A DNA stretch of 64,000 bases from Prevotella sp. E2-28. GTDB taxonomy: Bacteria; Bacteroidota; Bacteroidia; Bacteroidales; Bacteroidaceae. This document shows positions 34,165 through 50,476 of the stretch, one piece after another. A program made the translations under genes and the position numbers. The stretch covers positions 124,001-188,000 of the forward strand of contig NZ_CP091789.1 in NCBI RefSeq assembly GCF_022024055.1, in the 5' to 3' direction. How positions within the stretch are numbered: position 1 is the stretch's first letter; each line of letters begins with the position of its first letter. Below the pieces are notes generated by a model. The model ran no database searches. It saw only the letters and a list, made by a program, of their open reading frames with translations, and had not been told where the DNA came from.

Positions 34165-34695
34165 TTAGGCTGTTATCTCAGCCATTAATTGTATCTTCAG
34201 TTGCTCAACAATACAATTCCACAGACTGGAATTTTGGAGTTTGCCAGTTGGTATGTAATTCTTGTATTTCTCATAGAACTCCATACCCGTATCTTCAAAC
34301 AGATGATGAGGGTAGATGTTGATAATACGCTCCCAATCCCATTTGTCTGCATACTTTTCCAGCAATTCATGCGTCATTGTTAGATTTCTATTATCTGACA
34401 GTTCACTCCAATTCCATTTCTCCTTAAAGGCATCCAGGAAGGGTTCTGTCATGACTGCCTCACTAGCATATTCAGAAAACTTGTTCCAGTTTATTCGATT
34501 CTTGAACTTCTGAACCATGGGAACAGTCCACACCACGCTACTGTTACATGAAATTGCATGCCAATCGACTTGATCCTGATATTTCTCCAATAATGCTTCT
34601 GACCACGAGAAATTTTCGGATAGTTCTTTCCATGCCTCAGAAACTGCCGTCTGGTGCATGAAATCATTACTTAAAATCTTTGTTGCCATAATCAC
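34165..34695 (-). CDS. Tandem tryptophan-repeat protein (176 aa)
   Basis: The protein is built from about five repeats of 23-25 residues with a common core of the form LLEKYxDKWDWxxLSxNxxLxWT. Examples: SWSEALLEKYQDQVDWHAIS, PMVQKFKNRINWNKFSEYA, PFLDAFKEKWNWSELSDN, ELLEKYADKWDWERIINIY. Aromatic W-D/N-W steps recur at the repeat junctions, suggesting a helical solenoid that binds a peptide or protein. It is cytosolic and under the regulon-B box (34741-34759), so it belongs to the WYL-controlled island. Confidence 0.75.
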   Translation of the reverse strand: MIMATKILSNDFMHQTAVSEAWKELSENFSWSEALLEKYQDQVDWHAISCNSSVVWTVPMVQKFKNRINWNKFSEYASEAVMTEPFLDAFKEKWNWSELSDNRNLTMTHELLEKYADKWDWERIINIYPHHLFEDTGMEFYEKYKNYIPTGKLQNSSLWNCIVEQLKIQLMAEITA

Positions 34696-34723
34696 TTTTT
34701 GTATTTAAATGAAAAATATACTG

Positions 34724-34759
34724 CAAAGATAGCTCAGAGTTGTGCCGTATCAAGGCATA
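34724..34759 (-). promoter_or_regulatory. Promoter with regulon-B operator (W-repeat gene)
   Basis: Minus strand -7 element TATCTTTG (34724-34731), then 9 nt, then the box at 34741-34759 which on the plus strand reads TGTGCC-GTATCAA-GGCATA, a near-palindrome. Confidence 0.75.
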
Positions 34760-34767
34760 AGATATGA

Positions 34768-37497
34768 TTATTTCATTAATTTCTTTCCTAAATGTATTTC
34801 ATCGCCAACTATTTGAATTTTATATTTATCTATGACATCTGAAGAAACGAGGCATAACCCCATACGCTTACATTCCTTAATGAGAATATTAAGTTCTGAC
34901 TTTTGACTCTTGCGGGATTCCATTATCGCAGCCATATACTCAACAGGATAATTAGCTTTGAGATATGCAGTCTGATAGGCAATCCATGTATAGCAGACTG
35001 CATGAGACTTGTTAAAGGCATAGCAACCGAAATGTTCCCAATCTTTCCATATCTTTTCCAATATTCTGGGATTATGTCCATTCTTCTTTCCTCTCTCAAT
35101 GAACTGGGGTTTTAGTACATCTATGATATCTTTTTTCCTTTTACCCATAGCTTTGCGCAGGATGTCACTTTCTTCTCTGGTAAAATCTGCAAGCAGACGG
35201 GAGAGCATCATTATCTGCTCCTGATACACAGTTACACCATAAGTATCTTTTAGATATTTCTCCATACATGGAATGTCATAGGTAATTTTGTCTCTTCCAT
35301 TCTTTTTTGATACGAATGCTGGAATGTAGTCCATCGGACCTGGGCGATAAAGAGCATTCAAAGCAACAAGGTCATCAAACACTGTTGGCAGGAGGTAACG
35401 AAGCCACTTTCTCATGCTTGAAGATTCAAACTGGAAAACACCAATGGTATTACCTTGTTGATATAGTTCAAAAGTATTGGGATCGTCTATAGGAATCTCA
35501 TCCAAATTGATGTCAATTCCACGAGAATATTTAATGTTCAAGAGAGCTGTCTTTATTTCTGAAAGTGTTTTCAGTCCTAAAAAGTCCATCTTCACAAGGC
35601 CAGCAGACTCAATGCGCATTCCATCATACTGGGTACAGACAATACTATTCCCTTTCTCATCTGGATTGTCAGTAGTAAATACAGGAGCCCAGTCGTTTAT
35701 TGGGCCTTGACTGACAACAAACCCACAAGCATGAACACCTGTTCCACAAATCGCTCCTTCCAGTATTTTAGAATACTTGATTAGATTCCTCATAGCTGGT
35801 TTCCGTGACTTTTCTGCCTTTTTAAAGGCTGGGACGGTAAGACAGATGTTCGTCATATTCATTCTCATCCAATTCGGCAGATATGGAGGTATCTCTTCGC
35901 ATAAGGATTCCGACACTGAATCTGGGATTTTTTCCAGTTTAGCTACATTCTTGATGACTCTTTGGGGGTACATTGTTGCGAATGTGACAATATGGGCACA
36001 ACAATCCTTCCCATACTTGTCTTCAAGATATTTATGAGCTAGAAAACGTCCTTCTTCATCAAAGTCTATGTCAATATCAGGTAATACATCTCGATTCAAA
36101 TTGATAAAACGCTCAAATAGCAAATCGTATTTCAAAGGATCTATCCTAGTTATTCCTAAGCAGAATGAGACCAAGCAACCTGCTGCAGAACCACGACCTG
36201 GTCCAACCATCACACCATAGTTATTTCTCAACGAGTTTACAAGATCCTGCATTATCAGGAAGTATCTGGAGAACCCTTTTGTCTTTATGACATGTAACTC
36301 GAACCGAAGTCTGTCCTCCACATCTGACGGCAAAGGTTTTCCATATATCTGATATGCTCTATCTATGGAAATCTTTTCCAGATAGTCATGCTCTAACATA
36401 ATCTGATATAACTCGTTTATTCCTCCTAATCGGTTAATCCTTTCGATGCATTCTATTTCAGACATGCAATTTTCACCATTTTCATCACAAGAAAAATCAT
36501 GCAGAAGAGATTCTTCTGTATATTTCTCGCGCCACTCCTTTTCTGTTCCGAATTCAGTTGGAATTGGATATGCTGGCAATACAGGCTTATGATCGATGCT
36601 GTATAGCTCAATCTTATTCAGTATATCAAGTGTATTGGATAATGCCTCTGGAATATCCTCGAAAACAGTGGCCATCTCATCATAAGTTTTAAGCCATTCC
36701 TGCTTAGAATAATAGGTTCTATTTGGTTCTTCAAGTTCTTTACCTGTTCCCAAACAGATCAATCTGTCATGAGCTTCTGCCTGGTCTTGATTAGTAAAAT
36801 GAACATCATTTGTGCAAACCACTTTAATACCATACTCTTTGGCAAGTTGCTTTAACTGTCGGTTAACCTTCTCTTGACACTTGTATTTTTCTCGATCGGC
36901 AATGATGGATGAGTCTTTCACCTCATGGCGTTCCAACTCCAGATAATAATCATCACCAAATACCCCATGGTACCATTCAATAGCTTCACGAGTACCGATA
37001 ATATCATCATTTAAAAGTTTAATAGGAACTTCACCTGCAAGGCATCCCGATAGAACTATCAGGCCCTCATGATATTTCTCTAACTCTTTACGGTCTGTGC
37101 GAGGCCTCATGAAGAACCCGTCCGTCCAGGAATTACTGACTATTTTGATAAGATTCCTATAACCTCGCTCATTTTTGGCCAATACTGTCAGGTGATAGCC
37201 CCCAAGGTCTTTAGGAAATGCTTTATGATCCTTAGTGCCGTTCTTTGTAACATACAATTCACAGCCGAAGATGGGCTTAAAAGGGTCTATACCTTTCGCC
37301 TCACGTTCTTTATTGAGTCTATTCACATAGTCATAAAAGTCTTTGATGCCAAACATATTTCCATGGTCTGTCAATGCCATGCCAGGCATACCACATTCTA
37401 TGGCCTTGTCCACGAGATTCCTTACGCTTGATAGAGCATCATAAATTGAATAATGTGAATGTACATGTAGGTGTACGAAGTTTTTTAAACTATCCAT
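34768..37497 (-). CDS. dnaE: Short DNA polymerase III alpha (DnaE-like) with PHP domain, lacking the C-terminal region
   Basis: I choose ATG 37497 (MDSLKNFVHLHVHSHYSIYD), since the upstream in-frame start lies at the promoter; the product is 909 aa. The PHP domain (HLHVHSHYS near residue 8, TDHGNMFG near 43) and the polymerase core with PDIDIDF are intact. The protein stops at EIHLGKKLMK, right where normal DnaE (about 1150-1250 aa) has FGLxAIKxxG and the HhH/OB domains, so the tau/clamp and ssDNA-binding end is missing. It is expressed from a boxed promoter of the WYL regulon rather than a housekeeping one. It could be a defence or mutagenic polymerase. Confidence 0.88.
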   Translation of the reverse strand: MDSLKNFVHLHVHSHYSIYDALSSVRNLVDKAIECGMPGMALTDHGNMFGIKDFYDYVNRLNKEREAKGIDPFKPIFGCELYVTKNGTKDHKAFPKDLGGYHLTVLAKNERGYRNLIKIVSNSWTDGFFMRPRTDRKELEKYHEGLIVLSGCLAGEVPIKLLNDDIIGTREAIEWYHGVFGDDYYLELERHEVKDSSIIADREKYKCQEKVNRQLKQLAKEYGIKVVCTNDVHFTNQDQAEAHDRLICLGTGKELEEPNRTYYSKQEWLKTYDEMATVFEDIPEALSNTLDILNKIELYSIDHKPVLPAYPIPTEFGTEKEWREKYTEESLLHDFSCDENGENCMSEIECIERINRLGGINELYQIMLEHDYLEKISIDRAYQIYGKPLPSDVEDRLRFELHVIKTKGFSRYFLIMQDLVNSLRNNYGVMVGPGRGSAAGCLVSFCLGITRIDPLKYDLLFERFINLNRDVLPDIDIDFDEEGRFLAHKYLEDKYGKDCCAHIVTFATMYPQRVIKNVAKLEKIPDSVSESLCEEIPPYLPNWMRMNMTNICLTVPAFKKAEKSRKPAMRNLIKYSKILEGAICGTGVHACGFVVSQGPINDWAPVFTTDNPDEKGNSIVCTQYDGMRIESAGLVKMDFLGLKTLSEIKTALLNIKYSRGIDINLDEIPIDDPNTFELYQQGNTIGVFQFESSSMRKWLRYLLPTVFDDLVALNALYRPGPMDYIPAFVSKKNGRDKITYDIPCMEKYLKDTYGVTVYQEQIMMLSRLLADFTREESDILRKAMGKRKKDIIDVLKPQFIERGKKNGHNPRILEKIWKDWEHFGCYAFNKSHAVCYTWIAYQTAYLKANYPVEYMAAIMESRKSQKSELNILIKECKRMGLCLVSSDVIDKYKIQIVGDEIHLGKKLMK

Positions 37498-37557
37498 ATT
37501 TGCTGTTTTTATATATGTTAAACTTGAATTACTTATTATATAATACGAATGAGACTG

Positions 37558-37593
37558 CAAAGCTAAAACAAAGATGTGTCTATCTGGGGCAGA
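37558..37593 (-). promoter_or_regulatory. Promoter with regulon-B operator (dnaE-like gene)
   Basis: Minus strand -7 element TAGCTTTG (37558-37565), then 9 nt, then the box at 37575-37593 reading TGTGTC-TATCTGG-GGCAGA on the plus strand. Two positions differ from the palindromic consensus. Confidence 0.7.
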
Positions 37594-37607: not shown

Positions 37608-38228
37608 TTATTTCTTCATCAAAAACATATAGAAGTCCCAGTATTTAGAGACTGCCATATCTTGAATCTTATTCTGTTGTTCTGCATCTTCTCCAATCAA
37701 CATTGAAAGATAATTCCAAAAAGACTTCCGGTGATGGTGGTGTTTTAAATGAGCCATTTCGTGCAGTATTACTACGTCCATCAATCTATTGGGAAATATT
37801 ACAATAATGGGGGAGAGCCTGATATAATTCGAATGGGTACACTGTCCTAAAACACCTTTTCGCAGTTTCTTAACTACAATCCCGTTTGCATAAAGGTTAT
37901 GTAGGGATTCCAGCTCATGTAACCTTTGGGGTAAAACCTTCTTTGCCCTCAGAACAATGTGGTCACGAATAGTCTCCCTAAGCCATTTTTGAATACGAAT
38001 ATTCTCAAACTTAGTTTGATTAGTATATAAAAAGTCTAGCCCAGAGTTGCCTTCCCTAACAATCGCATGAATACAATTCGTTCCATAACCGTATACCAGC
38101 CTTTCCTTGTCATATAATTCATTCAGTTCCAAATCGCATGTATCACAAAGATGCCATTCTACACTAAAGGATGGAAAGTTCAGACGGAATCTTGGGTTAA
38201 TCCAATATAGAGGTGTTCTTTTGCTCAT
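37608..38228 (-). CDS. YgjP/SprT-like zinc metallopeptidase (RavA-ViaA operon)
   Basis: ATG 38228 gives an ATGA overlap with the VWA gene; an ATG 9 nt upstream is possible. The C-terminal half has VILHEMAHLKHHHHRKSFW near residues 160-180, the H-E-x2-H-L-K-x-x-x-H arrangement of the YgjP-like/M48-related zinc peptidases. An N-terminal part has a C-x2-C pair (LCDTCDLE). It closes the operon RavA-VWA-peptidase. The triad recalls MoxR-vWA-protease conflict systems, where the ATPase and VWA proteins could license the peptidase. This link is inference. Confidence 0.8.
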   Translation of the reverse strand: MSKRTPLYWINPRFRLNFPSFSVEWHLCDTCDLELNELYDKERLVYGYGTNCIHAIVREGNSGLDFLYTNQTKFENIRIQKWLRETIRDHIVLRAKKVLPQRLHELESLHNLYANGIVVKKLRKGVLGQCTHSNYIRLSPIIVIFPNRLMDVVILHEMAHLKHHHHRKSFWNYLSMLIGEDAEQQNKIQDMAVSKYWDFYMFLMKK

Positions 38229-39577
38229 ACTTTCCATATTCGATCTAATATATCATCATATCCGGAAACGGTACTCTCTATCTGCAAGCCATAAAACCTT
38301 GTTCCTTTGTTGTGTTCTATTTCCATTTGTTCCAACGTTTTGGTTCTTGGCGGTGGAAAATAGAAATCGCTAATAATAAGGACATCGGCCATCGAATAAC
38401 TGTCGGTGTTTAGCATCTTCAAAGCGTTTTTTATCATATCCTCCCCGTCAGTACCTCCTGTAAATGGATTATTCAGGAAACGATTCAACCGGCTCCATGA
38501 ACCAGGTCGGGATAAATCCATACACTCAGCTCTGACAGAAAAAGTTATTAAGAAACATTTTCTTTTTTGTTTCTTGGCCATTCTAAGAAGCTGAAGCAAG
38601 AGACAACGGGCAACTTTTTCTGGCCTACCTGACATAGAACCACTGGTATCAAGACTGACAATAATTGGACCTTTTTCTAATCTCGGCTTTTTATTACGTT
38701 TCTTCTCAGTCTTTTCTACACTCTCTTGTTTGGGCTTGTTGGCAAAAAGCTGCAGTTGGCGTGAAGCATATTTCAGGTAAAACAGATCCTCTGTTCCTTT
38801 ATCTGCTAGGATTGTAGTTTCCATCGGCAGGAGATGCTGTAAGTCATTTCCTACAGATACTTGCTCTATCTCGACAGCAGGTGTTGGCGGTGAGGGTAAT
38901 AGTGGCATATAACTTTTTACTGTCTCGTCATATTCGTCATCTCGTTCAGGCTGTTCCCTTCCGATGATACGAACTATATCTACCAACTGCGGGTAGGAAT
39001 AGAAAGCTTTTTCTATTTTCTTACGCTGTTTAAAGTCAGTATTTCCGTGTTCTTTAACGCCCTTTTCCCATTTTTCTCTATTAAACTCAATGATTTCGAC
39101 TTTCTTTTTTCGGGCAAGTTCGTCACAAGCTTTATCCCAATCAGACAATAAAGAGGAAAAGACTGCATCAAGATCTTGACTTTTCATTTGTTCAACATAG
39201 CCGTCAATGTTCACTTCTTCTGGGGCATATTCCCTTGTGATAGTGCTATACACATCTTTCCACATGTTTCTCTTTTGGTCAATGTCTGCATCTGCAAAGA
39301 CTACGATGTAGGACTTTTCACGTTGATGCGCCTTTTCTATTGGCTGGAACAGTTCCAACATAGCCTCCAAGAACTTCATAACCTCCTCTTTCAAGAGTTC
39401 CTTCCATACAGGATCCTGACTGTCGAGCTGCGGATTTTCATCAATCGTCTGCTGCAAGAAGCCTCCTAACAGGTCTTCTTGCGGGATGTTATCTGGCATT
39501 CGGCCTCTTTCCATATAGAAGTCGAAAGCATCGTCATATTCCTTTAACCTGTTGGCTATTTCTGTTTCATTCATCAT
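38225..39577 (-). CDS. VWA-domain protein, ViaA-like partner of RavA (450 aa)
   Basis: The C-terminal third is a von Willebrand A domain with the MIDAS motif VSLDTSGSMSGRPEKVARC near residue 310 and TGGTDGEDMI near 380. VLIISDFYFPPP follows. The layout matches ViaA, the RavA partner. The N-terminal 250 residues are helical and partly acidic, as in ViaA. The gene overlaps the RavA-like gene by 4 bp. The MIDAS site binds Mg2+ and probably a peptide or the peptidase encoded next. Confidence 0.88.
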   Translation of the reverse strand: MMNETEIANRLKEYDDAFDFYMERGRMPDNIPQEDLLGGFLQQTIDENPQLDSQDPVWKELLKEEVMKFLEAMLELFQPIEKAHQREKSYIVVFADADIDQKRNMWKDVYSTITREYAPEEVNIDGYVEQMKSQDLDAVFSSLLSDWDKACDELARKKKVEIIEFNREKWEKGVKEHGNTDFKQRKKIEKAFYSYPQLVDIVRIIGREQPERDDEYDETVKSYMPLLPSPPTPAVEIEQVSVGNDLQHLLPMETTILADKGTEDLFYLKYASRQLQLFANKPKQESVEKTEKKRNKKPRLEKGPIIVSLDTSGSMSGRPEKVARCLLLQLLRMAKKQKRKCFLITFSVRAECMDLSRPGSWSRLNRFLNNPFTGGTDGEDMIKNALKMLNTDSYSMADVLIISDFYFPPPRTKTLEQMEIEHNKGTRFYGLQIESTVSGYDDILDRIWKV

Positions 39578-41124
39578 ATGAGCGATTCTGCATTGGTAGC
39601 TTTAACTTGAAGTTCATTCAATCGCTTATCACAATTGACCATGTATTTCTTAACCACAGTCAGATCATCATCCGACAAGAACAGATGCTTAGTTTTCGAA
39701 AACATTTCCTGTAATTGAGCCAGTTTAGGACGTAAATCCTTTTGGATGATATTCAGGGTGACTGTAGCAACATTGGCTGGAATAATACCTGGATTATCGA
39801 ATAATCCCAGACCATCCTGCGCACTCTTCCGTTCAAAGGCATAAGCTGTTCCATTGATAATTATGCCTCCTTGGCACTTGGTCAGTTTTACCTTCATCGA
39901 TTTTGCTCCAGTTTTTGTTTTGTAATCATACGGTGTGCCTGTGTAGATGGCATGAACTATCCACGCTTTCTTGTCCTGGTCATAGAACAGAATGCCATCC
40001 ATAGAGCGGTGTATTTCGACGTGACTATAATCTGGTTTAAAGAACAGACATTTCCCATTAGGATGGTTACGTAGCTGATAATAGAAGTAGTTTACTTGCT
40101 TATACTCATCGTCTGCAGCTCGATTTGTCTGAGCAACAGTTTGTGAGTTCTTTTTAAGGGCAGCTTCAATCTCCTTGGTTTGTTTATCTATATTGAAATC
40201 AATTACCGCCGTTATACTTCGACTCACAATATCAATGGTAGCAGGAATCGTTTCTGCCTTATTCCATAGACATGAAAACAACAGCGGAACGTCAGTTACA
40301 TCAATCGTCTTGCGTCCATTAAGGAAAGCAGACGCTTGCATCAGATGAAAGCACTTTTTCCATCGACGGTCAGAGATATAGAAGTCCATTTCATTATTAT
40401 CCTCTTTTTTTCCTTCTTCTTTTAAGAATTTCCGAATATAGGAAACAACATTGCAAACATCGTCAGGAATCGTTACTTCATCGATCTTTTCCTGCCACTC
40501 ATGATAGATTTCGTCTGTTATCTGCAAATCAAACGGCACATCAATGGTTTTCAATGGTTTCTGCCTAATCATTTTGAAAAACGTTGATTCGCTCTTGATA
40601 CAATTAGAAACCATCCTGACTAGAAATCTATCCCATAGCGCTTCCAATCCTTCATCCTCTGCAGGCAACTCATTACTGGCTGCAATCAAAGCTTTCATCG
40701 GGAGTCGGATGATATTACGTCCATTCTGGAAAATCTTCTCGTTGATAGCAGTCAGTAAGGCATTTTGGATAGAGGGACCGGCTTTCCATATCTCATCGAG
40801 GAAAACGACATCTGCAGTAGGTAGAAAACCATCAACAACACGTTCATACTTATCTTCATTCTTTAAAAGGGAAATAGATACAGGGCCAAATATCTCATCT
40901 GGCGTACTGAAGCGTGACATAAGATATTCAAATGATTTCCCTCCACGGAAAATAAGTTTCAACCTTCTGGCCACAAGACTTTTTGCTGTGCCTGGAGGTC
41001 CTAACAAGAATATACTTTCACCTGCAACAGCACATAGCAACGACATCGCTAAGATGTGTTGCTTCTCATAGATCCCCTCAGATATTATCTTTATAAGGGA
41101 CTTTATATGTATGTCCTCCTTCAT
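39574..41124 (-). CDS. RavA-like MoxR AAA+ ATPase (516 aa)
   Basis: Walker A is GPPGTAKSL near residue 42, followed by the RavA-diagnostic FEYLMSRFSTPDEIFGP. Walker B is VVFLDEIWKAGPSIQNALLT near 110 and sensor 1 AASNELPAEDEGLEALWDR near 150. A C-terminal region of about 200 residues matches the LARA-like tail length of RavA. In E. coli RavA-ViaA is a chaperone-like complex, and here it is coupled to a metallopeptidase. A plain promoter (TAATTTTG at 41147-41154) lies upstream; the regulon-B box is not seen there, although read-through from the 41220 gene is possible. Confidence 0.9.
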   Translation of the reverse strand: MKEDIHIKSLIKIISEGIYEKQHILAMSLLCAVAGESIFLLGPPGTAKSLVARRLKLIFRGGKSFEYLMSRFSTPDEIFGPVSISLLKNEDKYERVVDGFLPTADVVFLDEIWKAGPSIQNALLTAINEKIFQNGRNIIRLPMKALIAASNELPAEDEGLEALWDRFLVRMVSNCIKSESTFFKMIRQKPLKTIDVPFDLQITDEIYHEWQEKIDEVTIPDDVCNVVSYIRKFLKEEGKKEDNNEMDFYISDRRWKKCFHLMQASAFLNGRKTIDVTDVPLLFSCLWNKAETIPATIDIVSRSITAVIDFNIDKQTKEIEAALKKNSQTVAQTNRAADDEYKQVNYFYYQLRNHPNGKCLFFKPDYSHVEIHRSMDGILFYDQDKKAWIVHAIYTGTPYDYKTKTGAKSMKVKLTKCQGGIIINGTAYAFERKSAQDGLGLFDNPGIIPANVATVTLNIIQKDLRPKLAQLQEMFSKTKHLFLSDDDLTVVKKYMVNCDKRLNELQVKATNAESLI

Positions 41125-41146
41125 ATGCTATCAAATTTTAATGCGA

Positions 41147-41154
41147 CAAAATTA
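41147..41154 (-). promoter_or_regulatory. -7 element of the RavA-VWA-peptidase operon
   Basis: Minus strand TAATTTTG, 23 nt upstream of the start codon. The TGTGCC-N7-GGCACA box is not present at the standard 9-nt offset. Confidence 0.55.
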
Positions 41155-41219
41155 CTCTATATTTTGGTTTTAGCTGCATCCTAATTCATCACAAGCCTTG
41201 CGAACTGGAATAATTATTG

Positions 41220-41648
41220 TCAGCAACTACATACCAACATTAATAACACTTTCTCGTCCAGACTATTATCGTACCCCATTCCCCATCTGATTTCTACGCC
41301 ATTTGGAAACAGCTTGATAACGTCATGGATATAACGAAGTTCTTCCATAAGAAGAGGATGTTTCTGCGATGTACTAACCAGCAGAACAACTTTATTATAG
41401 CATCCGAAATCAATGGATGCATATTCTGTGAGTTCACGAAGTATAGACTCCATGCGACTCTCATTAGTTCGAGGGAAGGAGTTTATTCTACGTTTAAGCA
41501 CAACCTGCTCCTTGTATAGATATATCAGGTCGCTTTTGTCTAAACGAACCAAAGTTGCTTGCTCCACAATCTGTTGAATCAATTCATCAATCTCTGGCTT
41601 ACTACCTCTGAGGTTTAAAAAGCGTGTCTCGTTTACCGTCTGCTCCAT
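41220..41648 (-). CDS. Unknown 142-aa protein, FtsZ C-terminal-domain-like (tentative)
   Basis: The C-terminal 70 residues read YNKVVLLVSTSQKHP ... ELRYIHDVIKLFPNGVEIRWG ... DEKVLLMLVCSC. This order of strands and helices, with a P-N-x-x-I/V-x-W-G and a final hydrophobic strand, resembles the C-terminal (regulatory) domain of FtsZ/tubulin proteins without the GTPase domain. The N-terminal half is helical (PEIDELIQQIVEQATLVRLD). The gene starts 13 nt after the AAA+ gene's stop. The match is by eye and could be wrong; the neighbourhood also has a ZapA-like protein, which normally binds FtsZ. Confidence 0.55.
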   Translation of the reverse strand: MEQTVNETRFLNLRGSKPEIDELIQQIVEQATLVRLDKSDLIYLYKEQVVLKRRINSFPRTNESRMESILRELTEYASIDFGCYNKVVLLVSTSQKHPLLMEELRYIHDVIKLFPNGVEIRWGMGYDNSLDEKVLLMLVCSC

Positions 41649-41661
41649 ATATTATTATCAT

Positions 41662-43314
41662 TTAAAAACCAATCTTTCTTTGCTCTTTTTTCTCTAATCG
41701 TTCATTGTCACAGTGAATTGACAGCGTTTCAAGAACATTACTTGAAGAACCATGAAGTATGTTATCTATAGCATAATGACGTGCTATGTTTTCTATCTGG
41801 CCACCACTGAAATCGTACTTCACAGCCAAAGCATGGGTGTCAGCCTCTGAGAGAGTTGGAATCATCTCACGCCAGATGCTCATACGCGCCTCTATAGTAG
41901 GTTTGGTGAATTTTATCTTATAGAGGAAGCGACGTTCAAAGGCCTTATCCATATTCTGTGCTAAATTGGTTGTAGCTATCAGAATACCATCAAGAGTTTC
42001 CATTTCCTGAAGAATAATATTTTGAATGGAATTCTCCATCTTGTCAACAGCACGTTCAGCACCTTCCTGACGTTTACCAATAATAGCATCTGCCTCATTG
42101 AACAATAGGACAGGAGTCAACTTAGACTCCCTTACCTTGTTTCGATAGTTATCGAATAGGGCTTTAATGTTCTTCTCGCTCTCACCAACCCACATACTTT
42201 TTATTTCAGAGATATTCACTTGCATGATGTCACGACCAGTCTCCTTGGCAAGCTGCAGGACTGTTTCGGTTTTACCAGTACCAGGCATTCCATAGAAAAG
42301 ACACGTGAAGCCACATCTGAAACCAGACTCTTTGAGACGGTTCCGGATTTCTTGATAATGGTCATCATTCAACAGCTGCGTTAGTTCTGACACCTGTTTT
42401 CTAACTTCTTCGTCGTAATAGAGCTTTTTTATTGCAATATCATCTGCCTTTAGGAGTCCGGCCTTCTTTTGATTAGTATTCAGTGAAGATAGATTCAACT
42501 CCTCAAATAAAGTTCGCTTGGCTTCCATTGTCATTCGGAACGATTCTCTATTGACAAAGCCATCGTCGTTATTATATTCAATCATCTTGGCAGATAATAG
42601 AATATGTTCCCCTGCGTTCAAAGATGACTTTATTCGATTCCATCTGCGCTTATCAAATAGAAAATCCAAGTCGTGATATCCAATATTGTCATCGCTGTTA
42701 TTAACAAACAGATGGGAAAACAAAATTAAAAGGAGTTCATCTTCAACATCAAAATTGAAACTCTTCAGTTTCTCCACAAAAATGAGGTTGGGATTATTTG
42801 TGAACAATTCTCTTATCTTTTCGCAAACGCCTTTTTCTGTGAGTTCATCGTTTTTTCTCATGTCAAAAATGTCTTCCAACTCAGCAAAAAGTTCTGCACA
42901 AGAAAGACCAGAAAGATCATCTGGTTTATACAACTCATTGTGTTGAAAAGCTTCTATGACCTTCATGGGAACACGATAAGAGCGGCCTCTTCTATCGCGG
43001 CAACATATTATAAGACCTCTTTTTTCCAATACGTCGATATCGTTCATAAAACGAATAATTCTGGTGGTTCGACAGCCAAGAAAAGTACCAAAATCACTAA
43101 TAGAAATACTGGAATCTTCACTATTATCAATAAATAGTGACATCATTACACTTTGTTCCTTTGTAAGGTCTAGGGCTTCTGATAAGTATTTGATATACTT
43201 GCCTGCCTTACGAAAGAAATCCTTACTAAGTTGAGAATCTTTAGCCAACTCAACGATTTTTTCTACTGCCTGCAACAGATCCAACTCTTGCTTTTTTGAT
43301 TGTTTTGCTGTCAT
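41662..43314 (-). CDS. AAA+ ATPase with N-terminal regulatory region (550 aa)
   Basis: ATG 43314 is preferred because an upstream in-frame ATG lies within the operator. The AAA module is at about residues 310-520: Walker A FYGMPGTGKTE, Walker B LLFNEADAIIGKR (the aspartate of the usual DExD is N), sensor IATTNLAQNMDKAFERRFL and the sensor-2 region FSGGQIENIARHYAI. The N-terminal 300 residues are helical and winged-helix-like (SISDFGTFLGCRTTRIIRFM). The family resembles phage-defence and cell-cycle AAA proteins of Bacteroidetes. It starts the operon that includes the 142-aa protein. Confidence 0.85.
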   Translation of the reverse strand: MTAKQSKKQELDLLQAVEKIVELAKDSQLSKDFFRKAGKYIKYLSEALDLTKEQSVMMSLFIDNSEDSSISISDFGTFLGCRTTRIIRFMNDIDVLEKRGLIICCRDRRGRSYRVPMKVIEAFQHNELYKPDDLSGLSCAELFAELEDIFDMRKNDELTEKGVCEKIRELFTNNPNLIFVEKLKSFNFDVEDELLLILFSHLFVNNSDDNIGYHDLDFLFDKRRWNRIKSSLNAGEHILLSAKMIEYNNDDGFVNRESFRMTMEAKRTLFEELNLSSLNTNQKKAGLLKADDIAIKKLYYDEEVRKQVSELTQLLNDDHYQEIRNRLKESGFRCGFTCLFYGMPGTGKTETVLQLAKETGRDIMQVNISEIKSMWVGESEKNIKALFDNYRNKVRESKLTPVLLFNEADAIIGKRQEGAERAVDKMENSIQNIILQEMETLDGILIATTNLAQNMDKAFERRFLYKIKFTKPTIEARMSIWREMIPTLSEADTHALAVKYDFSGGQIENIARHYAIDNILHGSSSNVLETLSIHCDNERLEKKEQRKIGF

Positions 43315-43342
43315 AATTGAAGCTTTTTCATTAATCTTGCTG

Positions 43343-43378
43343 CAAAGGTAAAACGAAGATGTGCCTATTTGGGGCATA
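43343..43378 (-). promoter_or_regulatory. Promoter with regulon-B operator (AAA+ gene)
   Basis: Minus strand -7 element TACCTTTG (43343-43350), then 9 nt, then the box at 43360-43378 reading TGTGCC-TATTTGG-GGCATA on the plus strand. Confidence 0.8.
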
Positions 43379-43419
43379 TCTTACATGATTTTGCGCAATC
43401 ATCGCAATTTTTTCAGAAA

Positions 43420-44142
43420 TCAATCATAATAATCAGATTTATTCCAATCAAGATCATCACCGTAATCATCATTATTATATGTATTAGAGTCCACTTCTGC
43501 ATTGACCTCTATGTTAAAATCACGAACCCACAAAAGATCAAAGATAGAGAATTCCATATGACTATACAGATTGTGGAAAGGAAAGATAAGATGCATGTCT
43601 TCTGTCAATTTCCTGTCCAAACCTTCATTCCAATTATTCAATTTATCATCTAAATATAGAACCTGATTTTCGGAGGGTATCTCTGGATCCCAGTTGCTAA
43701 CACTGATTAAATCAACGCCATCCTCATATAAAGGGATATATTTGTCAATGGAGCCATTGAGAATAGCCCACATTTTCTTAGCTCTTATAGTCTGAACAGG
43801 ATGAATTTTAGAGTATTCGTAGCCGAGGAAACACTTACCGGTCACTTCAAAATCTCCAGTTATACCAGACTCGCTTACAGAATTAAACAATGTAACAACT
43901 CGTTTCCGTGTTTCAAGCACCTGTATGCGAAGAGCTTCATTGAACTCAGCTAGCAATTGCTTATTGGTTTCATCAAGCACAAACATACTATTTAGAAGAT
44001 GGCATCTTACTCCCAAAAGATGCTCTATGGCAAAGCCTTCAGGACCATCGTAATGCTTTCTCTCATTAGCCATTTGGAGATTCAAAATCTCCAACTCCAC
44101 ATCACGAACAGCTGTAGTGTTGAAAATCTCTTGTACTGTCAT
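43420..44142 (-). CDS. Unknown 240-aa protein of the regulon-B island
   Basis: Not recognised. The protein has no signal peptide or membrane helix. Visible features are VRDVELEILNLQMANERK near the N terminus, a leucine-rich HLLGVRCHLLNSMFVLDE and an acidic D/N-rich C terminus (NDDYGDDLDWNKSDYYD). It starts 4 nt downstream of the ZapA-like gene and is the third gene of a three-gene operon. Functional linkage to the AAA+/RavA genes is likely because of the shared operator. Confidence 0.65.
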   Translation of the reverse strand: MTVQEIFNTTAVRDVELEILNLQMANERKHYDGPEGFAIEHLLGVRCHLLNSMFVLDETNKQLLAEFNEALRIQVLETRKRVVTLFNSVSESGITGDFEVTGKCFLGYEYSKIHPVQTIRAKKMWAILNGSIDKYIPLYEDGVDLISVSNWDPEIPSENQVLYLDDKLNNWNEGLDRKLTEDMHLIFPFHNLYSHMEFSIFDLLWVRDFNIEVNAEVDSNTYNNDDYGDDLDWNKSDYYD

Positions 44143-44146
44143 ACAT

Positions 44147-44428
44147 TTAGGATTTTAAGTATTCAATAATTTTTCTCCAGATAGAACGATACCCTTTCTT
44201 ATATTCATTTGTCGATGTCAGGTTAATGGCTATGTCCAACATCGTCATAAGTAAAATAGTATGTGTAGTCTTCCACCCACAATGTAACTTTTCATAAGTA
44301 ATAATTCGTTTTGTAACAAACCTTGCTGCATCATAATACTTATCTTCTTCACCTTTGATGACATTCACTTCTATTTGTTCGTCATAGACTTGCAATGTAA
44401 TCTTTTTCTTGTCGGCTTTCATATCCAT
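44147..44428 (-). CDS. ZapA-like protein (93 aa)
   Basis: The short protein follows the ZapA pattern: N-terminal strands (KITLQVYDEQIEVNVIKG), EEDKYYDAARFVTKRIITYE for the YR-AA-x-x-I-N-K helix, and a hydrophobic helix (ILLMTMLDIAINLTSTNE) for the dimer region, ending KKGYRSIWRKIIEYLK. ZapA crosslinks FtsZ filaments. Its occurrence in this regulon next to a protein with an FtsZ C-domain look suggests a target in cell division or a decoy. It overlaps the upstream gene by 10 bp. Confidence 0.65.
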   Translation of the reverse strand: MDMKADKKKITLQVYDEQIEVNVIKGEEDKYYDAARFVTKRIITYEKLHCGWKTTHTILLMTMLDIAINLTSTNEYKKGYRSIWRKIIEYLKS

Positions 44429-44808
44429 AAATCCCTATAATAATCAATAAATAATTGCATTCCTTCCTTAATCTTCTCTTGCTTCTCTAAAGGAAGCATG
44501 TCAAAGTCGTTTCCACCAATACACCACTGGTATTCTTCAAAAGCATAAAGCATCTTACGGATGATTGCTAACCACTTTTTATGACCTTCTCCAGCACTGC
44601 ATCCTTCAGCTAATTTTCCTGGACATCCTCCATTTGGTCCCTTTTGAGCCTTCAAAAATGCCCTTAAATGAACGGAAATAATACGAGCAAGTCTTGTATC
44701 AAGACTCCAAACATCTTCATACGATACCTCTGCATAGCCAGCATGAGCCACTTTTCTCCAATAATCATCTTTCCACTTGGGCTTCTCACCAAACATATAA
44801 TCATCCAT
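44419..44808 (-). CDS. Unknown 129-aa helical protein, first gene of a three-gene operon
   Basis: The sequence resembles small phage/mobile-element proteins: a VWSLDTRLARIISVHLRAFL helix, a PNGGCPG loop, then KWLAIIRKMLYAFEEYQW and LPLEKQEKIKEGMQLFIDYY. No catalytic motif is visible and the family name is not known to me. Its promoter carries the only perfectly palindromic regulon-B box (44851-44869). Together with the following ZapA-like and 240-aa genes it forms one transcription unit. Confidence 0.7.
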   Translation of the reverse strand: MDDYMFGEKPKWKDDYWRKVAHAGYAEVSYEDVWSLDTRLARIISVHLRAFLKAQKGPNGGCPGKLAEGCSAGEGHKKWLAIIRKMLYAFEEYQWCIGGNDFDMLPLEKQEKIKEGMQLFIDYYRDLWI

Positions 44809-44833
44809 AATGCACCATTTTTAATTCATGGTG

Positions 44834-44869
44834 CAAAAATAAAATAGAGCTGTGCCGTTTTGGGGCACA
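44834..44869 (-). promoter_or_regulatory. Promoter with perfect regulon-B palindrome
   Basis: Minus strand -7 element TATTTTTG (44834-44841), then 9 nt, then TGTGCC-GTTTTGG-GGCACA (44851-44869), in which both 6-bp arms are exact inverted copies. Confidence 0.85.
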
Positions 44870-44897: not shown

Positions 44898-47009
44898 TTA
44901 AGCCGTTAATGAATTGATAACTGACAACAATGCATCACGATACATCAGATCTAATTGATAACATCGGCTATCTTCATTCCAATCCCATTTGTTTTCCTGG
45001 TCTTTAGATACGAAAGCAAGTAATGATTGTTTGAAATGATCTATCTCATCTATTGTTATCTGATCTTTACCTCTTTGAGATACTAATAGATTGTAGATGT
45101 AGGAATTGTCATCGGTGCGAATGCATCTTATATCTAAATAAATAGACGTCAATTTGTTCTGGAAATATACGCAGGATTCCCATGATGGCCAGATTTCAAT
45201 CGTCCAATTATCATTTTTACCATAAATATCAAGTAATTCATGATAGAGATTCATATTCTTTACTGATATTGGCTTTGCCCATGAATTCTGAACTAGTAGC
45301 CAGCCATATTTGTCATTCCAATAAAGGTGCTTTGTATTACAATATCCCAACAGATAATCGCGCTGAACAAATTCTGCCCATAAATTTTCGGGAGTTTCAG
45401 GATAATTCCTTCTCATTTCATCAAGAACCTCTTCCTTCTCCTTCTCATGGAAACAATTAATAAAAGCTAAGAAATCGTCGCTATTCTTGGAAATGATTTC
45501 CTTCCATTCGTTTGAGGTGTAACCGAATTTTTCATTATCCGGATAATGAGGCATTCGTCGTGTTATCAATGCCTGCCGAACCTTGTCTGTTGTCCATCCA
45601 TTGTTCGCATTAGAAGAGAATAATTCATGGAAAATATTAGTAACTCTAATAAACTCAGAATATGAAAAAGTATCGTCTATGGTAGCCCACTTAATCAATT
45701 CCTTTATATTGCCATTCCAGAATTTTGATTCTTGCTCTTTCCAAATAGAATTTTCAACCTTTTTATCATGGGCATAATAACACAATTTCACTTTGTCAAG
45801 TTCGTGGCCTGTGAATACTTTAGATGCATACTCATTTTGAGTATCAATGATAAATGAATAGAACCCAAAATCAGAATTTTTGTAGCAATCTAAATAATTG
45901 AGGAAATCAATATGGCTTTTTATCTTATTACGTCTTACGTGATTAATAATTGTTTGATATACTCTTTCGTATTCATGCTCATCAGTTTGTCCTTTTAATA
46001 ATTCGGTCAAGAGGGATTTTAGGACATAAAATTGTCCATCGCTTTCTGCGTCACCATACAGCCTTTCTACTTCTTCCTTGTATTTGCCATTGGACAATGA
46101 TATTAAATGCTTGATTGCATTCATGTAACATTCAATATCAGCAAGTGTTATTACTTCTGCATCCTCAACAGGATTGATGTTGTCATGCTCTCTCTTGGAT
46201 ATAAGTTCAAGAGTAATCCTAATCATATTATTCATGGCGGCATCTATCGAGTTTACACTTCTATCTCCACGCAAACTCCTGTTATAGAAGAATTCTTCCC
46301 AGTCATCCCATTTCTTGCCATACTTTTCTTTTTCCATGACATCGCCCATCTTATTAAGTAATCTAGGCTTTATCTGTTCAGAATCCGTAAGTTTCTCACC
46401 TCTACTATTCATTGTAATGTACAATTCTTCTCCTTGGGACGTTTGAGCCACGTCAAAATACCAAAAGCAGACATTATTAATGACTCCTTTATATGTTAAA
46501 TTCTGGAGTTTTGGAACCCACTCTTTGAATACTTCCAAAGCTCCTATCATGGATTTTATGGTCGTATCTTTTCTATAATCCCTCTTAAACCACGTTTGGT
46601 CTTCTATCATTTGAGGATCTGTTGTCTTTGATTTCAATAAGTTAGTAAGGAAAGAATCAGTGTGTGTACGTACTCTGTATGAGAATGATGGCCTTACACT
46701 ATCAAGCTTCTGGAGTGCCATGTATTCCACATAAGTTTCTTCAGAATCCACAATGGACAAATAATATAGTAACAACAATATAGTTGTGTATCGTTGTTGA
46801 CCATCAATAAGATAATGTTCCTGACCAGACTGGTAAGAATACAAAAAGCCTATATTTGTTTCGCCCAATTCTATCTTTTCATTAAGATCCCTAAGGAATT
46901 GAACGAGTACTTGTTTATTCTTATTATCTCCCCATACATACTCTCTTTGTATCTCAGGGACTACAAAGTCGAAATTCTTCAGCAATTCGCTTATATTCTT
47001 TTTTTCCAT
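44898..47009 (-). CDS. DUF262 (GmrS/ParB-like) protein without an obvious HNH domain (703 aa)
   Basis: DUF262 is recognised by VVPEIQREYVWGDNKNKQ near residue 18 and by the DGQQR motif YLIDGQQRYTTILLLL near 68. The following 450 residues are helical. The C-terminal 150 residues (WPSWESCVYFQNKLTSIYL, then ITIDEIDHFKQSLLAF) form a separate domain that I cannot assign; no EHxxPQ-type HNH motif is seen, unlike in its upstream neighbour. It is the last gene of the WYL-DEDDh-DUF262-DUF262 operon. The pair looks like a split GmrSD-type modified-DNA restriction system. Confidence 0.85.
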   Translation of the reverse strand: MEKKNISELLKNFDFVVPEIQREYVWGDNKNKQVLVQFLRDLNEKIELGETNIGFLYSYQSGQEHYLIDGQQRYTTILLLLYYLSIVDSEETYVEYMALQKLDSVRPSFSYRVRTHTDSFLTNLLKSKTTDPQMIEDQTWFKRDYRKDTTIKSMIGALEVFKEWVPKLQNLTYKGVINNVCFWYFDVAQTSQGEELYITMNSRGEKLTDSEQIKPRLLNKMGDVMEKEKYGKKWDDWEEFFYNRSLRGDRSVNSIDAAMNNMIRITLELISKREHDNINPVEDAEVITLADIECYMNAIKHLISLSNGKYKEEVERLYGDAESDGQFYVLKSLLTELLKGQTDEHEYERVYQTIINHVRRNKIKSHIDFLNYLDCYKNSDFGFYSFIIDTQNEYASKVFTGHELDKVKLCYYAHDKKVENSIWKEQESKFWNGNIKELIKWATIDDTFSYSEFIRVTNIFHELFSSNANNGWTTDKVRQALITRRMPHYPDNEKFGYTSNEWKEIISKNSDDFLAFINCFHEKEKEEVLDEMRRNYPETPENLWAEFVQRDYLLGYCNTKHLYWNDKYGWLLVQNSWAKPISVKNMNLYHELLDIYGKNDNWTIEIWPSWESCVYFQNKLTSIYLDIRCIRTDDNSYIYNLLVSQRGKDQITIDEIDHFKQSLLAFVSKDQENKWDWNEDSRCYQLDLMYRDALLSVINSLTA

Positions 47010-47045: not shown

Positions 47046-48908
47046 TTATTGAGCAAAATCTATTTCTGACCGTGCTGGAAAATGGAGATAGTCACTAATA
47101 CGCGAATCTATATTATTAACAGTTCGAATTATGTCTTCATCTGACCAAAATAGTTCACTATCATCGATTCCGTTATTGTCTATGTTCTTTAACTTAGATA
47201 TAAAAACTTCATAGGTGTGAGGTCTTATATAACAATCATTCATTAAAAATTCATTTACTATCCTATCCATTTTTAAGGTATATCCAGAATTTCCATAACT
47301 CCGATTGACCCCATTGTCAAGTAGAACAATATTTCCGATAGAATTAATGCCATTCTTGTTTTCCTCTTTCAATGCTTGTTCCTCTTCGGTTGTTAGGATG
47401 TCACTATTGGTTTTGCGATTTTGAGAACGGACATGTTCCTTATCTTCTCCACAATCCCCTTTAATACATTTTAAATAGTTAACCTTAACTTTTTTGTATA
47501 TGATTTTTGTTCCTTTATTTGTTTTTTTAATAACTGGAAGTATATCTAATAAAGGTAGGAACTTTGTCGTAAAATCATCATGATACCAATCGTAAGATAA
47601 ATCAAGGATAGCATTACGTAAAGATACCAGTTTGTTATCCAAAGCATCGTCATCACCACTAAAATTAGATGCCAATTGCTCACGAATAATCGCTTTTATC
47701 TCGTCTTTAAACTTTTGTTTGGAATGTAGCTGCTTCCATTTCCCCCATAATAATTCAAATGATATGGTTGCGCTTTTATAGTTATACATTAGATATCCAA
47801 CCAGATTAAATATTTCTTCATTTTCAAACCATTCAACCATCGTCATATGGAATTCCTTAACTGCATAATAAAATTCCAAGTGGTCGTCACTTGCATCGCC
47901 ATTAAAATCAATACCATTTTCAAAAAACCTTAATTCAAGATCACGTTCTTTGTCAGAAGCTATAAGCTTATCTTTGTAAGCCTCATAAAAAGCATAATAC
48001 AAAAGATCAATAGGATATTGATTGTATTTAAAAGATTTGTTTTTGACAATTCGATTAGGGAGGAGCTGTTCGAAATAACTTTGAACATCAGGATTTGACC
48101 ACCATTTGTTCATTTCATCTAGCTCTATGCCAAGTTTTATTCGGAATTCATTTATTTTACCTTGTGAAGAGACTGTTACATCAATATTCAGATTAATATC
48201 TTCTCCCGCGATTTTATTTATTATATCTTTAGAGGAAATAGTTGGATATTTCTGCTTTGCCGCTCTTGTAACGAGAATTGCCCTTACCAGATCTGCTCCA
48301 TCAAGTTCAACTTTACCACCATTCAAACTGGCAAATACAGTTTCCTCCTCACCACTATCTACCTGATTGACTATTAATTTCAAGTCATCAAGTATAGTGT
48401 TGCTCTGTAACTCATTCTCCTTAAACCAATCTGAAATAGCTTTTGCGACGGCCATAATATAGTATTGGTCTTTTGTGTTAGCATTTTGCGGATCTATTTC
48501 GGAGTTCCATAATGAGCCCGACAATATCTCCTGACGAAGGAAGATATCTGTACTTTCTCTAACAGAATATTTGAGAATATCTGCACCAGTTTCTATAATC
48601 TTGTTTATCATGTTTCTTTGGATATATGAAACCAGGATAAATAAGGTCGTTAGTCTCTGCTGTCCATCAATAACATTCAAACACTGCTTTCCATTCAGAA
48701 AGGTTTTTGTAATAGTGATATTTTGAAGACAATAAAAGGACGAAGCATCTCCTTTCCTGAAATTCTTCAAATCAACTAATAATTGTGTAACATTATCATC
48801 TGTCCATTTATACCCTCTTTGGTATTCTGGAATATTGAAGAAATTACATTTTTCTGCTGGCAAGTAACTGCGAAAGACCTCTCTAACGCTATATATTAAT
48901 TCACTCAT
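47046..48908 (-). CDS. GmrSD-like DUF262 + HNH (DUF1524-type) restriction protein (620 aa)
   Basis: ATG 48908 (MSELIYSVREVFRSYLP) is the start, 1 nt after the exonuclease stop; the upstream in-frame ATGs lie inside that gene. The DUF262 domain has IPEYQRGYKWTDDNV near residue 30 and VIDGQQRLTTLFIL near 90. The C-terminal HNH-like part has EHVRSQNRKTN near 490 and IGNIVLLDNGVNRSYGN near 525-540, the H...N...N nuclease pattern of DUF1524. GmrSD enzymes cleave DNA with glucosylated or other modified cytosines using NTP in the DUF262 half. The substrate is not predictable here. Confidence 0.88.
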   Translation of the reverse strand: MSELIYSVREVFRSYLPAEKCNFFNIPEYQRGYKWTDDNVTQLLVDLKNFRKGDASSFYCLQNITITKTFLNGKQCLNVIDGQQRLTTLFILVSYIQRNMINKIIETGADILKYSVRESTDIFLRQEILSGSLWNSEIDPQNANTKDQYYIMAVAKAISDWFKENELQSNTILDDLKLIVNQVDSGEEETVFASLNGGKVELDGADLVRAILVTRAAKQKYPTISSKDIINKIAGEDINLNIDVTVSSQGKINEFRIKLGIELDEMNKWWSNPDVQSYFEQLLPNRIVKNKSFKYNQYPIDLLYYAFYEAYKDKLIASDKERDLELRFFENGIDFNGDASDDHLEFYYAVKEFHMTMVEWFENEEIFNLVGYLMYNYKSATISFELLWGKWKQLHSKQKFKDEIKAIIREQLASNFSGDDDALDNKLVSLRNAILDLSYDWYHDDFTTKFLPLLDILPVIKKTNKGTKIIYKKVKVNYLKCIKGDCGEDKEHVRSQNRKTNSDILTTEEEQALKEENKNGINSIGNIVLLDNGVNRSYGNSGYTLKMDRIVNEFLMNDCYIRPHTYEVFISKLKNIDNNGIDDSELFWSDEDIIRTVNNIDSRISDYLHFPARSEIDFAQ

Positions 48909-48909
48909 A

Positions 48910-49401
48910 TTACAATATTTTAATTGCAATGGCAGCGCAGGCTTCTGCATCGGCCAATGCATGGTGATGATTCTCTAAATGATATCCGCACAACTCTGAA
49001 ATTGTGTGAAGTTGATGATTCTCTGCATCAGGAAAAGCCTTACGCGAAGCTACACAGGTACAGAAGAATTCATAGTCTGGATAATCCATCTGATAACAGC
49101 GGAACACAGCTTTCAGACAACTTTCGTCAAAAGCCTTATTGTGAGCGACAAGAGGTAATCCTTCTATGAGGGGTTCTACCTGCTTCCATACTTCGGGAAA
49201 GGCTGGAGCCTCTTCTGTATCATTTCGTGTAAGACCATGAACCTGAGTACACCAATAGTTATAGTAATTGGGTTCTGGCTGTATCAGCGAATAGAAACTA
49301 TCCACAATTTCCCCGTTCCTGACAATTATAATTCCAACACTACAAACACTACTTCGCTCGTTGTTGGCTGTTTCAAAATCAATTGCTGCAAAGTCTTTCA
49401 T
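48910..49401 (-). CDS. DEDDh 3'-5' exonuclease (DnaQ-like, 163 aa)
   Basis: ExoI is AAIDFETAN near residue 8, ExoII VAHNKAFDESCLK near 85 and ExoIII HHALADAEACAAI near 148, so all catalytic residues (D, E, D, H, D) are present. The size is that of stand-alone exonucleases, not of polymerase subunits with a tail. It lies between the WYL gene (8 bp) and the GmrSD-like gene (1 bp). Together with the short DnaE-like polymerase, which lacks its own proofreading domain, it might form a proofreading pair, or it may process the restriction products (inference). Confidence 0.93.
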   Translation of the reverse strand: MKDFAAIDFETANNERSSVCSVGIIIVRNGEIVDSFYSLIQPEPNYYNYWCTQVHGLTRNDTEEAPAFPEVWKQVEPLIEGLPLVAHNKAFDESCLKAVFRCYQMDYPDYEFFCTCVASRKAFPDAENHQLHTISELCGYHLENHHHALADAEACAAIAIKIL

Positions 49402-50321: not shown

Positions 50322-50339
50322 AATAAAACAATTATGGTG

Positions 50340-50375
50340 CAAATATACAAAAAAGATATGTAAAAACAAGGCACA
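50340..50375 (-). promoter_or_regulatory. Promoter of the WYL operon with a half-degenerate regulon-B operator
   Basis: Minus strand -7 element TATATTTG (50340-50347), then 9 nt, then TATGTA-AAAACAA-GGCACA (50357-50375): the distal arm GGCACA is intact, the proximal arm is changed. A weaker site would suit autoregulation. Confidence 0.65.
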
Positions 50376-50476
50376 ACTTTGAAAATCATCAATATAAATG
50401 TTCATTATTGGCAGTTTAAGACTTAATGAACGTTAATTTTATGGGGAAAAGGTTAAGCTACGTGAACACTCTGCGG

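Follow-up and report, generated by a model that had tools for sequence, protein, structure and literature searches.

Do the genes at positions 37,608 to 44,869 of a 64,000-nucleotide stretch of the Prevotella sp. E2-28 genome (contig NZ_CP091789.1, positions 124,001 to 188,000; hereafter the window) form one machine that acts on cell division? The region encodes a MoxR-like ATPase, a VWA protein and a YgjP-type zinc peptidase, next to an AAA+ ATPase with an FtsZ-like partner and an operon with a ZapA-like gene, and all eight predicted open reading frames (ORFs) are present on the minus strand (Table 1). These genes are modules of one cassette island and not a single three-part machine. Judged from the sequences, the MoxR-VWA-YgjP module recurs near FtsZ-family proteins, which are here reduced to the C-terminal domain; the gene content, the identity of the FtsZ C-domain, its recurrence and the shared promoter architecture can all be read at this level. 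The best explanation, which we hold tentatively, is a modular Bacteroidales defence or stress island that would be switched by a WYL protein and would arrest division through capping by an FtsZ C-domain protein. If true, this would constitute a new way for bacteria under attack to stop or guard division: FtsZ mimicry encoded outside the division cluster and coupled to a chaperone-peptidase machine and a common promoter signal. The 142-amino-acid (aa) FtsZ-like protein offers a small, concrete target for study.

A preliminary description of this DNA had paired the AAA+ ATPase with an FtsZ C-domain-like partner, and the FtsZ-like nature of this partner is confirmed. Both family profile and predicted fold of the 142-aa protein lead to the FtsZ C-terminal domain, and the partner recurs in other loci. 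A single-sequence scan returned no Pfam match above cut-off for this protein, and neither a GTPase domain nor a GGGTGTG-type signature was found in it. Iterated hidden Markov model searches, by which the set of FtsZ C-domains was built, identified 28 ORFs in 24 of the 104 stretches compared (the window included); the U4 members, above all that of L216, are the weakest in this set. Five forms can be distinguished. The first is the stand-alone domain, with the D-x-x-D motif, which we take to be that of the FtsZ T7 loop, kept in 7 of 11 members. The second comprises full FtsZ paralogues (L151, L187, L188 and L204; the L218 member retains the GTPase part only), in which the GTPase signature is intact in L187 and L151 and decayed in L188 (GGYTGT) and L204 (GGETGT). 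The third has a shortened front without a Pfam FtsZ match (L206, L209, L214, L215). The fourth carries a zinc-peptidase front (L185; Pfam WLM 28.1 and YgjP 26.6 bits, both cut-offs 26), suggesting that cleavage and the FtsZ C-domain belong together. The fifth, U4, joins a DUF6557 front to the domain.

A quick tree, which carries no support values, sets the L187, L188 and L204 paralogues as one branch apart from every one of the 31 FtsZ proteins of genomes of the same taxonomic family, while the L151 paralogue clusters with L251, one of the 31. Family genomes with a second FtsZ copy are not rare; a paralogue alone is therefore unsurprising, and its location is the surprise. Several of these genomes hold at least two FtsZ_C genes, with five matches in G060, and some copies stand in tandem elsewhere.

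The same forms bear on a different and rather doubtful reading, in which the FtsZ C-domain is a general docking domain of the island, either a tag that lets MoxR-VWA or the 240-aa protein recognise their partners or the unit of a private filament, unrelated to host division. The fusions to a zinc-peptidase front and to DUF6557 fronts argue for it, as do L187 and L188, where a stand-alone form and a full FtsZ paralogue lie in a single gene run. Also in its favour, among 20 genes for the 240-aa protein, an FtsZ-C gene lies on the same strand within 300 bp in 6 and within 5 kb in 12; yet the remaining 8 lack such a neighbour, and the presence of a ZapA paralogue in this island speaks for FtsZ biology. 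The exonuclease, dnaE, 240-aa and FtsZ-C (U4) genes are co-directional in L225 (IMGVR_UViG_3300028886_003644), a contig classed as viral that may be a phage or a wrongly called island.

The core of the module is formed by the moxR, vwa and ygjP genes. The moxR and vwa genes overlap by 4 nucleotides (nt) and share one operon with ygjP, where the overlap of vwa and ygjP amounts to 13 nt from the first ATG and to 4 nt (ATGA) from the second. The RavA-ViaA-peptidase operon with ATGA overlaps described earlier thus stands as one overlapping operon, but its second ATGA junction exists only if the second ATG is used. MoxR scores 178.2 bits against PF20030 (bpMoxR; cut-off 27). RavA and ViaA provide the best NCBIfam models for the two proteins, and the MoxR-then-VWA order is the same; however, both proteins fall below the equivalog cut-offs, with 359.1 of 681 bits for MoxR against RavA NF010054 (4.5e-107) and 144.5 of 500 bits for the VWA protein against ViaA NF008230 (5.8e-42, residues 179-448). 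As these scores reach about half and less than one third of the curated cut-offs, the two proteins are to be classed as relatives of RavA and ViaA, not as RavA and ViaA themselves. The HExxH..FW motif is present in 28 of the 31 collected YgjP-family ORFs, the other 3 being short ORFs.

To what extent are these neighbours conserved together? We compared 42 VWA loci from a scan of a species-genome collection with the VWA alignment. Almost all are titled Bacteroidales or Bacteroidia (rumen and gut Prevotellaceae, Muribaculaceae, Paludibacteraceae and Bacteroides), with single records titled 'bacterium', Alistipes and Lachnoclostridium. The intact VWA ORFs, found in 40 of the 42, group into 32 clusters at an identity of 95% and into 21 at 80%, or 23 when the two remaining loci are added. 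Loci were obtained with VWA, AAA+ or 240-aa queries, and all counts are conditional on that; the 20 regions around VWA and 240-aa genes represent part of the matches. Nine RavA-ViaA loci of the same taxonomic family (L146-L154), some of the distant RavA-ViaA matches, served as controls. The 42 loci, many of which stop at contig ends, average 17.3 kb in length and the controls 19.0 kb. Intact-ORF counts cover 42 loci and tblastn-match counts 43 (L225 included), hence their differing numbers.

Intact ORFs across the 42 VWA loci comprise moxR in 36, ygjP in 28, PLD-like in 18, wyl in 16, an FtsZ-type domain in 15, GmrSD in 14, AAA+ and the exonuclease in 10 each, the 176-aa gene in 9, the 240-aa gene in 8, dnaE in 5 and the 129-aa gene in 2. 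At 80% VWA identity, 11 of the 23 clusters contain the FtsZ-type domain and 14 contain WYL. Counting ten window families besides moxR, vwa and ygjP (PLD excluded), at least one is present in 33 of the 42 loci, at least two in 26 and at least three in 17, compared with one family each in 2 of the 9 controls. The controls contain moxR in all nine, AAA+ in one and FtsZ in one, and none of the other counted families, peptidase and WYL included. In L189, the order in one direction is wyl, exonuclease, AAA+, a 301-aa ORF, moxR, vwa, a broken ygjP, 240-aa, 142-aa and 176-aa. The preliminary description would have been refuted by neighbours that are not conserved together in other genomes; they do keep company, but their arrangement is shuffled and forms no fixed machine. 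The PLD-like nuclease (about 170 aa, family U0; L183-L224), the commonest extra cassette, does not occur in the window.

Seen from the AAA+ gene, the picture is looser. Among 40 loci around this gene, which are part of the listed matches, intact ORFs include wyl in 14, the exonuclease in 6, GmrSD in 4, the 142-aa family in 2, and moxR, 240-aa, 129-aa and dnaE in 1 each; no intact relative of vwa or ygjP was detected in them. The three operons as one obligate machine are ruled out on this count. The AAA+ gene itself occurs in 61 of 301 family genomes, and its other neighbours in these loci would fit a mere defence island of unrelated, accumulated systems, in which ZapA and the FtsZ C-domain are drifting captured fragments. 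The shuffled order, the restriction of ZapA to this window and a possible source for it (L075 and L086, see below) agree with that account. We consider it quite unlikely; the shared promoter architecture, the enrichment over control RavA-ViaA loci and the same adjacencies in separate clusters count against it.

The promoter architecture consists of a 19-bp dyad, TRTGCC-N7-GGCACA or a variant of it, at five promoters of the window, namely those of the 176-aa gene, dnaE, the AAA+ operon, the 129-aa/ZapA/240-aa operon and the WYL gene. All five dyads end exactly 9 nt before TAnnTTTGC, presumably the Bacteroidales -7 box. Perfect TRTGCCN7GGCACA matches occur at 3 places in the 3.76-Mb genome, all inside the window. 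When up to two mismatches are allowed, the genome contains 464 matches against 374 for a reversed control, and the window 14 against 6.85 expected, with 2 of 100 shuffles yielding as many. Since loose matches are common, it is the perfect sites and the spacing that make the case for the box. Across the 104 stretches, 55 palindromic 19-mers were found at 9-nt spacing, spread over 32 stretches, whereas any other spacing between 3 and 17 gave 0 to 14. Three pairs of stretches share identical sequence (L069/L070, L143/L200, L144/L202), inflating this count slightly, and only two of the window's five boxes enter it, because gene starts were picked mechanically. The half-site letters vary between loci, with a somewhat higher likeness within a locus (mean distance 4.54 versus 5.79).

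These results support the earlier proposal that the AAA+ and ZapA operons share a box; the extension of that regulon to the RavA operon is not upheld in this window, although the box precedes moxR in the relatives L190, L207 and L212. The fixed distance of the dyad suggests that the regulator contacts RNA polymerase. From its location and its own box, the WYL protein is probably the regulator of the cassettes that acts through the dyad. The genes of a 418-aa family, U6 (L206:726-1982, L215:2933-4189), carry a different palindrome, TGCGCA-N7-TGCGCA, likewise spaced by 9 nt, which may reflect a second regulator.

How could such an island act? In the best explanation introduced above, the WYL protein would activate the cassettes when the cell is attacked or damaged. 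The FtsZ C-domain protein, with its T7-type loop kept and without the GTPase domain, would dock on host FtsZ filaments at their growing face, or alternatively on a system-specific FtsZ paralogue, and cap them, as a C-domain of this kind could attach to the end of a filament and keep the following subunit from joining. The MoxR-VWA chaperone pair would then remodel the complex of FtsZ-C and FtsZ, which YgjP may cleave. Division would halt in an arrest resembling that by SulA while the island's nucleases are at work. The ZapA paralogue might represent another local, FtsZ-binding component of this type. The FtsZ- and ZapA-like parts suggest a system that stops or guards cell division, and a division-targeting abortive response, as proposed in the preliminary description, is possible. 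A broader formulation, about which we are more doubtful, is a Bacteroidales immune or stress island whose cassettes would share one operator and whose proteins would share a detachable FtsZ C-domain (alone, in full or GTPase-decayed paralogues, or fused to a zinc peptidase), with the MoxR-VWA-peptidase unit acting on, or being steered by, FtsZ-type polymers and arresting division under attack.

Several observations weigh against an action on division by these cassettes. No FtsZ-type domain is present in the stretch examined for 27 of the 42 VWA loci, and without U4 and the peptidase-fused form the domain is limited to 12 of 42 loci and 9 of 23 clusters. As it also occurs away from MoxR-VWA and, in U4, joined to DUF6557 fronts, it may be a plain adaptor without a tie to division. 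The T7-like motif is absent from 4 of the 11 stand-alone forms, and the L194 relative of the peptidase fusion has a front without a Pfam match. At the promoters, the region upstream of the RavA operon in this window shows no dyad, and the boxes of one locus resemble each other only modestly (32 of 2000 permutations did as well). Finally, no intact ZapA ORF was found in any of the 42 VWA loci; ZapA is not conserved there, and its place in a conserved core is ruled out.

The ZapA paralogue nevertheless is what the earlier description took it to be. Its PF05164 score exceeds the gathering cut-off of 23.8 bits, and the 93-aa protein aligns with 19 full-length ZapA proteins of other genomes, with a gapped, diverged C-terminal part. 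The same genome carries another ZapA copy, 40% identical. Outside the window, only L075 and L086 among the 104 stretches contain a ZapA ORF; in both, it lies some 5 kb away from an AAA+/WYL cassette, an arrangement that possibly marks the route of ZapA capture. Among the loci compared, ZapA inside such a cassette is peculiar to this window.

Division-protein mimicry also admits a sensing role. Phage-encoded inhibitors are known to attack division proteins, and the FtsZ-C and ZapA-like proteins could serve as decoys that catch such inhibitors, capture triggering the MoxR-VWA machine and the nucleases. The mimicry of just these targets, the five forms of the domain and the defence-type neighbours (GmrSD, PLD-like and PD-(D/E)XK nucleases) favour this idea, but sensing has no sign in the present data and we know of no phage FtsZ inhibitor of Bacteroidales, although none was searched for; we regard it as unlikely.

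Known systems resemble individual parts of the island. Passages of Kaur et al. 2020 (eLife, PMC7159879) describe four MoxR-vWA systems, in which about 7.5% of effector domains are division-related and FtsZ/tubulin members are rare. The window shares with these ternary conflict systems the MoxR and VWA core, the P-loop variant GXXXTAKS and, in kind, the division-related effectors (PMC7159879, same passages). It differs from them in the YgjP peptidase and the stand-alone FtsZ C-domain. In contrast to their beta-propeller subsystem, no C-terminal beta-propeller was detected in the VWA protein here, for which a Pfam scan returned only VWA families, up to residue 434 of 450, and two chance-level matches. 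Pfam and NCBIfam scans of the eight proteins, in which VMAP models were not searched by name, revealed no VMAP, iSTAND or FtsH third component; the AAA+ protein reaches 50.2 of 600 bits against the FtsH model, a general AAA likeness only.

An FtsZ-family protein beside a VWA protein is also known from the FtsZl1 operons of Makarova and Koonin 2010 (PMC2875224), which, as far as its main text goes, involve OmpA-like, kinase and GTPase partners and do not mention MoxR; here only the C-domain occurs, with MoxR and a peptidase. As in IetAS, the C-terminal half of the AAA+ protein matches IetA models. With 97.2 of 510 bits, far below the cut-off, and no S8 peptidase (IetS) beside it among the window genes covered by Pfam scans, its identity as IetA is ruled out. 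Like the BrxR/CapW WYL regulators of defence islands (PMC9122601), the WYL gene stands beside restriction genes and inverted-repeat operators, whereas here one dyad type, to which WYL binding is predicted, serves five promoters at a fixed distance from the -7 box. In the openly accessible literature, mostly titles and abstract openings, no description of this combination was found. RavA, ViaA and FtsZ appear together in three papers, PMC7159879 among them.

Further genes and the five boxes are listed in Table 1. The likely start of the AAA+ gene is the ATG at 43314, because the box falls inside the listed 5' end; DnaE and WYL likely start at the ATGs at 37497 and 50321. No fold match was found for the 240-aa protein.

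Table 1 Features of the window, all on the minus strand
Feature	Position	Strand	Match or remark
176-aa protein	34165..34695	-	phrog_3532 (function of family unknown)
Box TATGCCTTGATACGGCACA, 176-aa gene	34741..34759	-	
DnaE-like polymerase, 930 aa as listed	34768..37560	-	PHP + DNA_pol3_alpha
Box TCTGCCCCAGATAGACACA, dnaE	37575..37593	-	imperfect
YgjP/SprT-like zinc peptidase (HEMAHLKHHHHRKSFW)	37608..38237	-	PF01863 1.7e-19
ViaA-like VWA protein	38225..39577	-	VWA_CoxE 6.2e-6 (26.2 bits, cut-off 26.4)
MoxR/RavA-like AAA+ ATPase, P-loop GPPGTAKS	39574..41124	-	PF20030 bpMoxR 1.4e-52; AAA_lid_8 8.3e-20
142-aa FtsZ C-domain-only protein, T7-like D-x-x-D motif	41220..41648	-	family profile + predicted fold
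AAA+ ATPase, IetA/CDC48-like C-terminal half	41662..43377	-	PF00004 1.5e-25; IetA PDLC02196 2.7e-30, residues 317-556
Box TATGCCCCAAATAGGCACA, AAA+ operon	43360..43378	-	
240-aa protein, family unassigned, often near FtsZ C-domain genes	43420..44142	-	
ZapA paralogue, 93 aa	44147..44428	-	PF05164 26.8 bits
129-aa protein	44419..44808	-	phage family phrog_11543, 2.3e-10 (function of family unknown)
Box TGTGCCCCAAAACGGCACA, 129-aa/ZapA/240-aa operon	44851..44869	-	
GmrSD_N protein	44898..47009	-	PF03235 2.7e-26
GmrSD_N + GmrSD_C protein	47046..48962	-	PF03235 3.6e-28, PF07510 8.2e-7
DnaQ-type exonuclease	48910..49401	-	PF00929 5.4e-22
WYL+WCX regulator	49410..50405	-	PF13280 8e-16, PF25583 4.9e-11
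Box TGTGCCTTGTTTTTACATA, WYL gene's own promoter	50357..50375	-	imperfect

A related island in a named isolate is found on a 317-kb plasmid of Segatella hominis HDD12. This plasmid encodes relatives of MoxR (48%), VWA (36%), AAA+ (53%) and WYL (47%), a YgjP gene (40%) that is not listed in the PLSDB table, and, divergent from moxR, a diverged relative of the 142-aa protein (41% over 75 aa). PLD, PD-(D/E)XK and HAD genes are further present, as is an S8-peptidase/ATP-binding pair resembling IetAS. Three palindromes stand at 9-nt spacing, none with the letters of the window.

The evidence on a phage origin of the cassettes points both ways. In its favour, the exonuclease, DnaE and the 129-aa and 176-aa proteins have matches among phage families. 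Against it count the 240-aa protein, which had no match among 50,697 phage records and was found at 1 locus in viral contigs, the FtsZ paralogues, with no match in viral contigs, and the AAA+ protein, whose matches to 66 phage records never extend over 80% of its length.

The genome consists of two contigs, of which C2 (205 kb), possibly a plasmid or second chromosome, holds the window, and a second RavA-ViaA-like pair lies on C2 at 58023. Broken copies of ygjP (L189, L204, L210, L220) and of the AAA+ gene (L075) stand beside otherwise whole cassettes. In the window, a dinB-type polymerase gene lies at 32498-33589 on the opposite strand, close to the dnaE and 176-aa genes (34165-37593).

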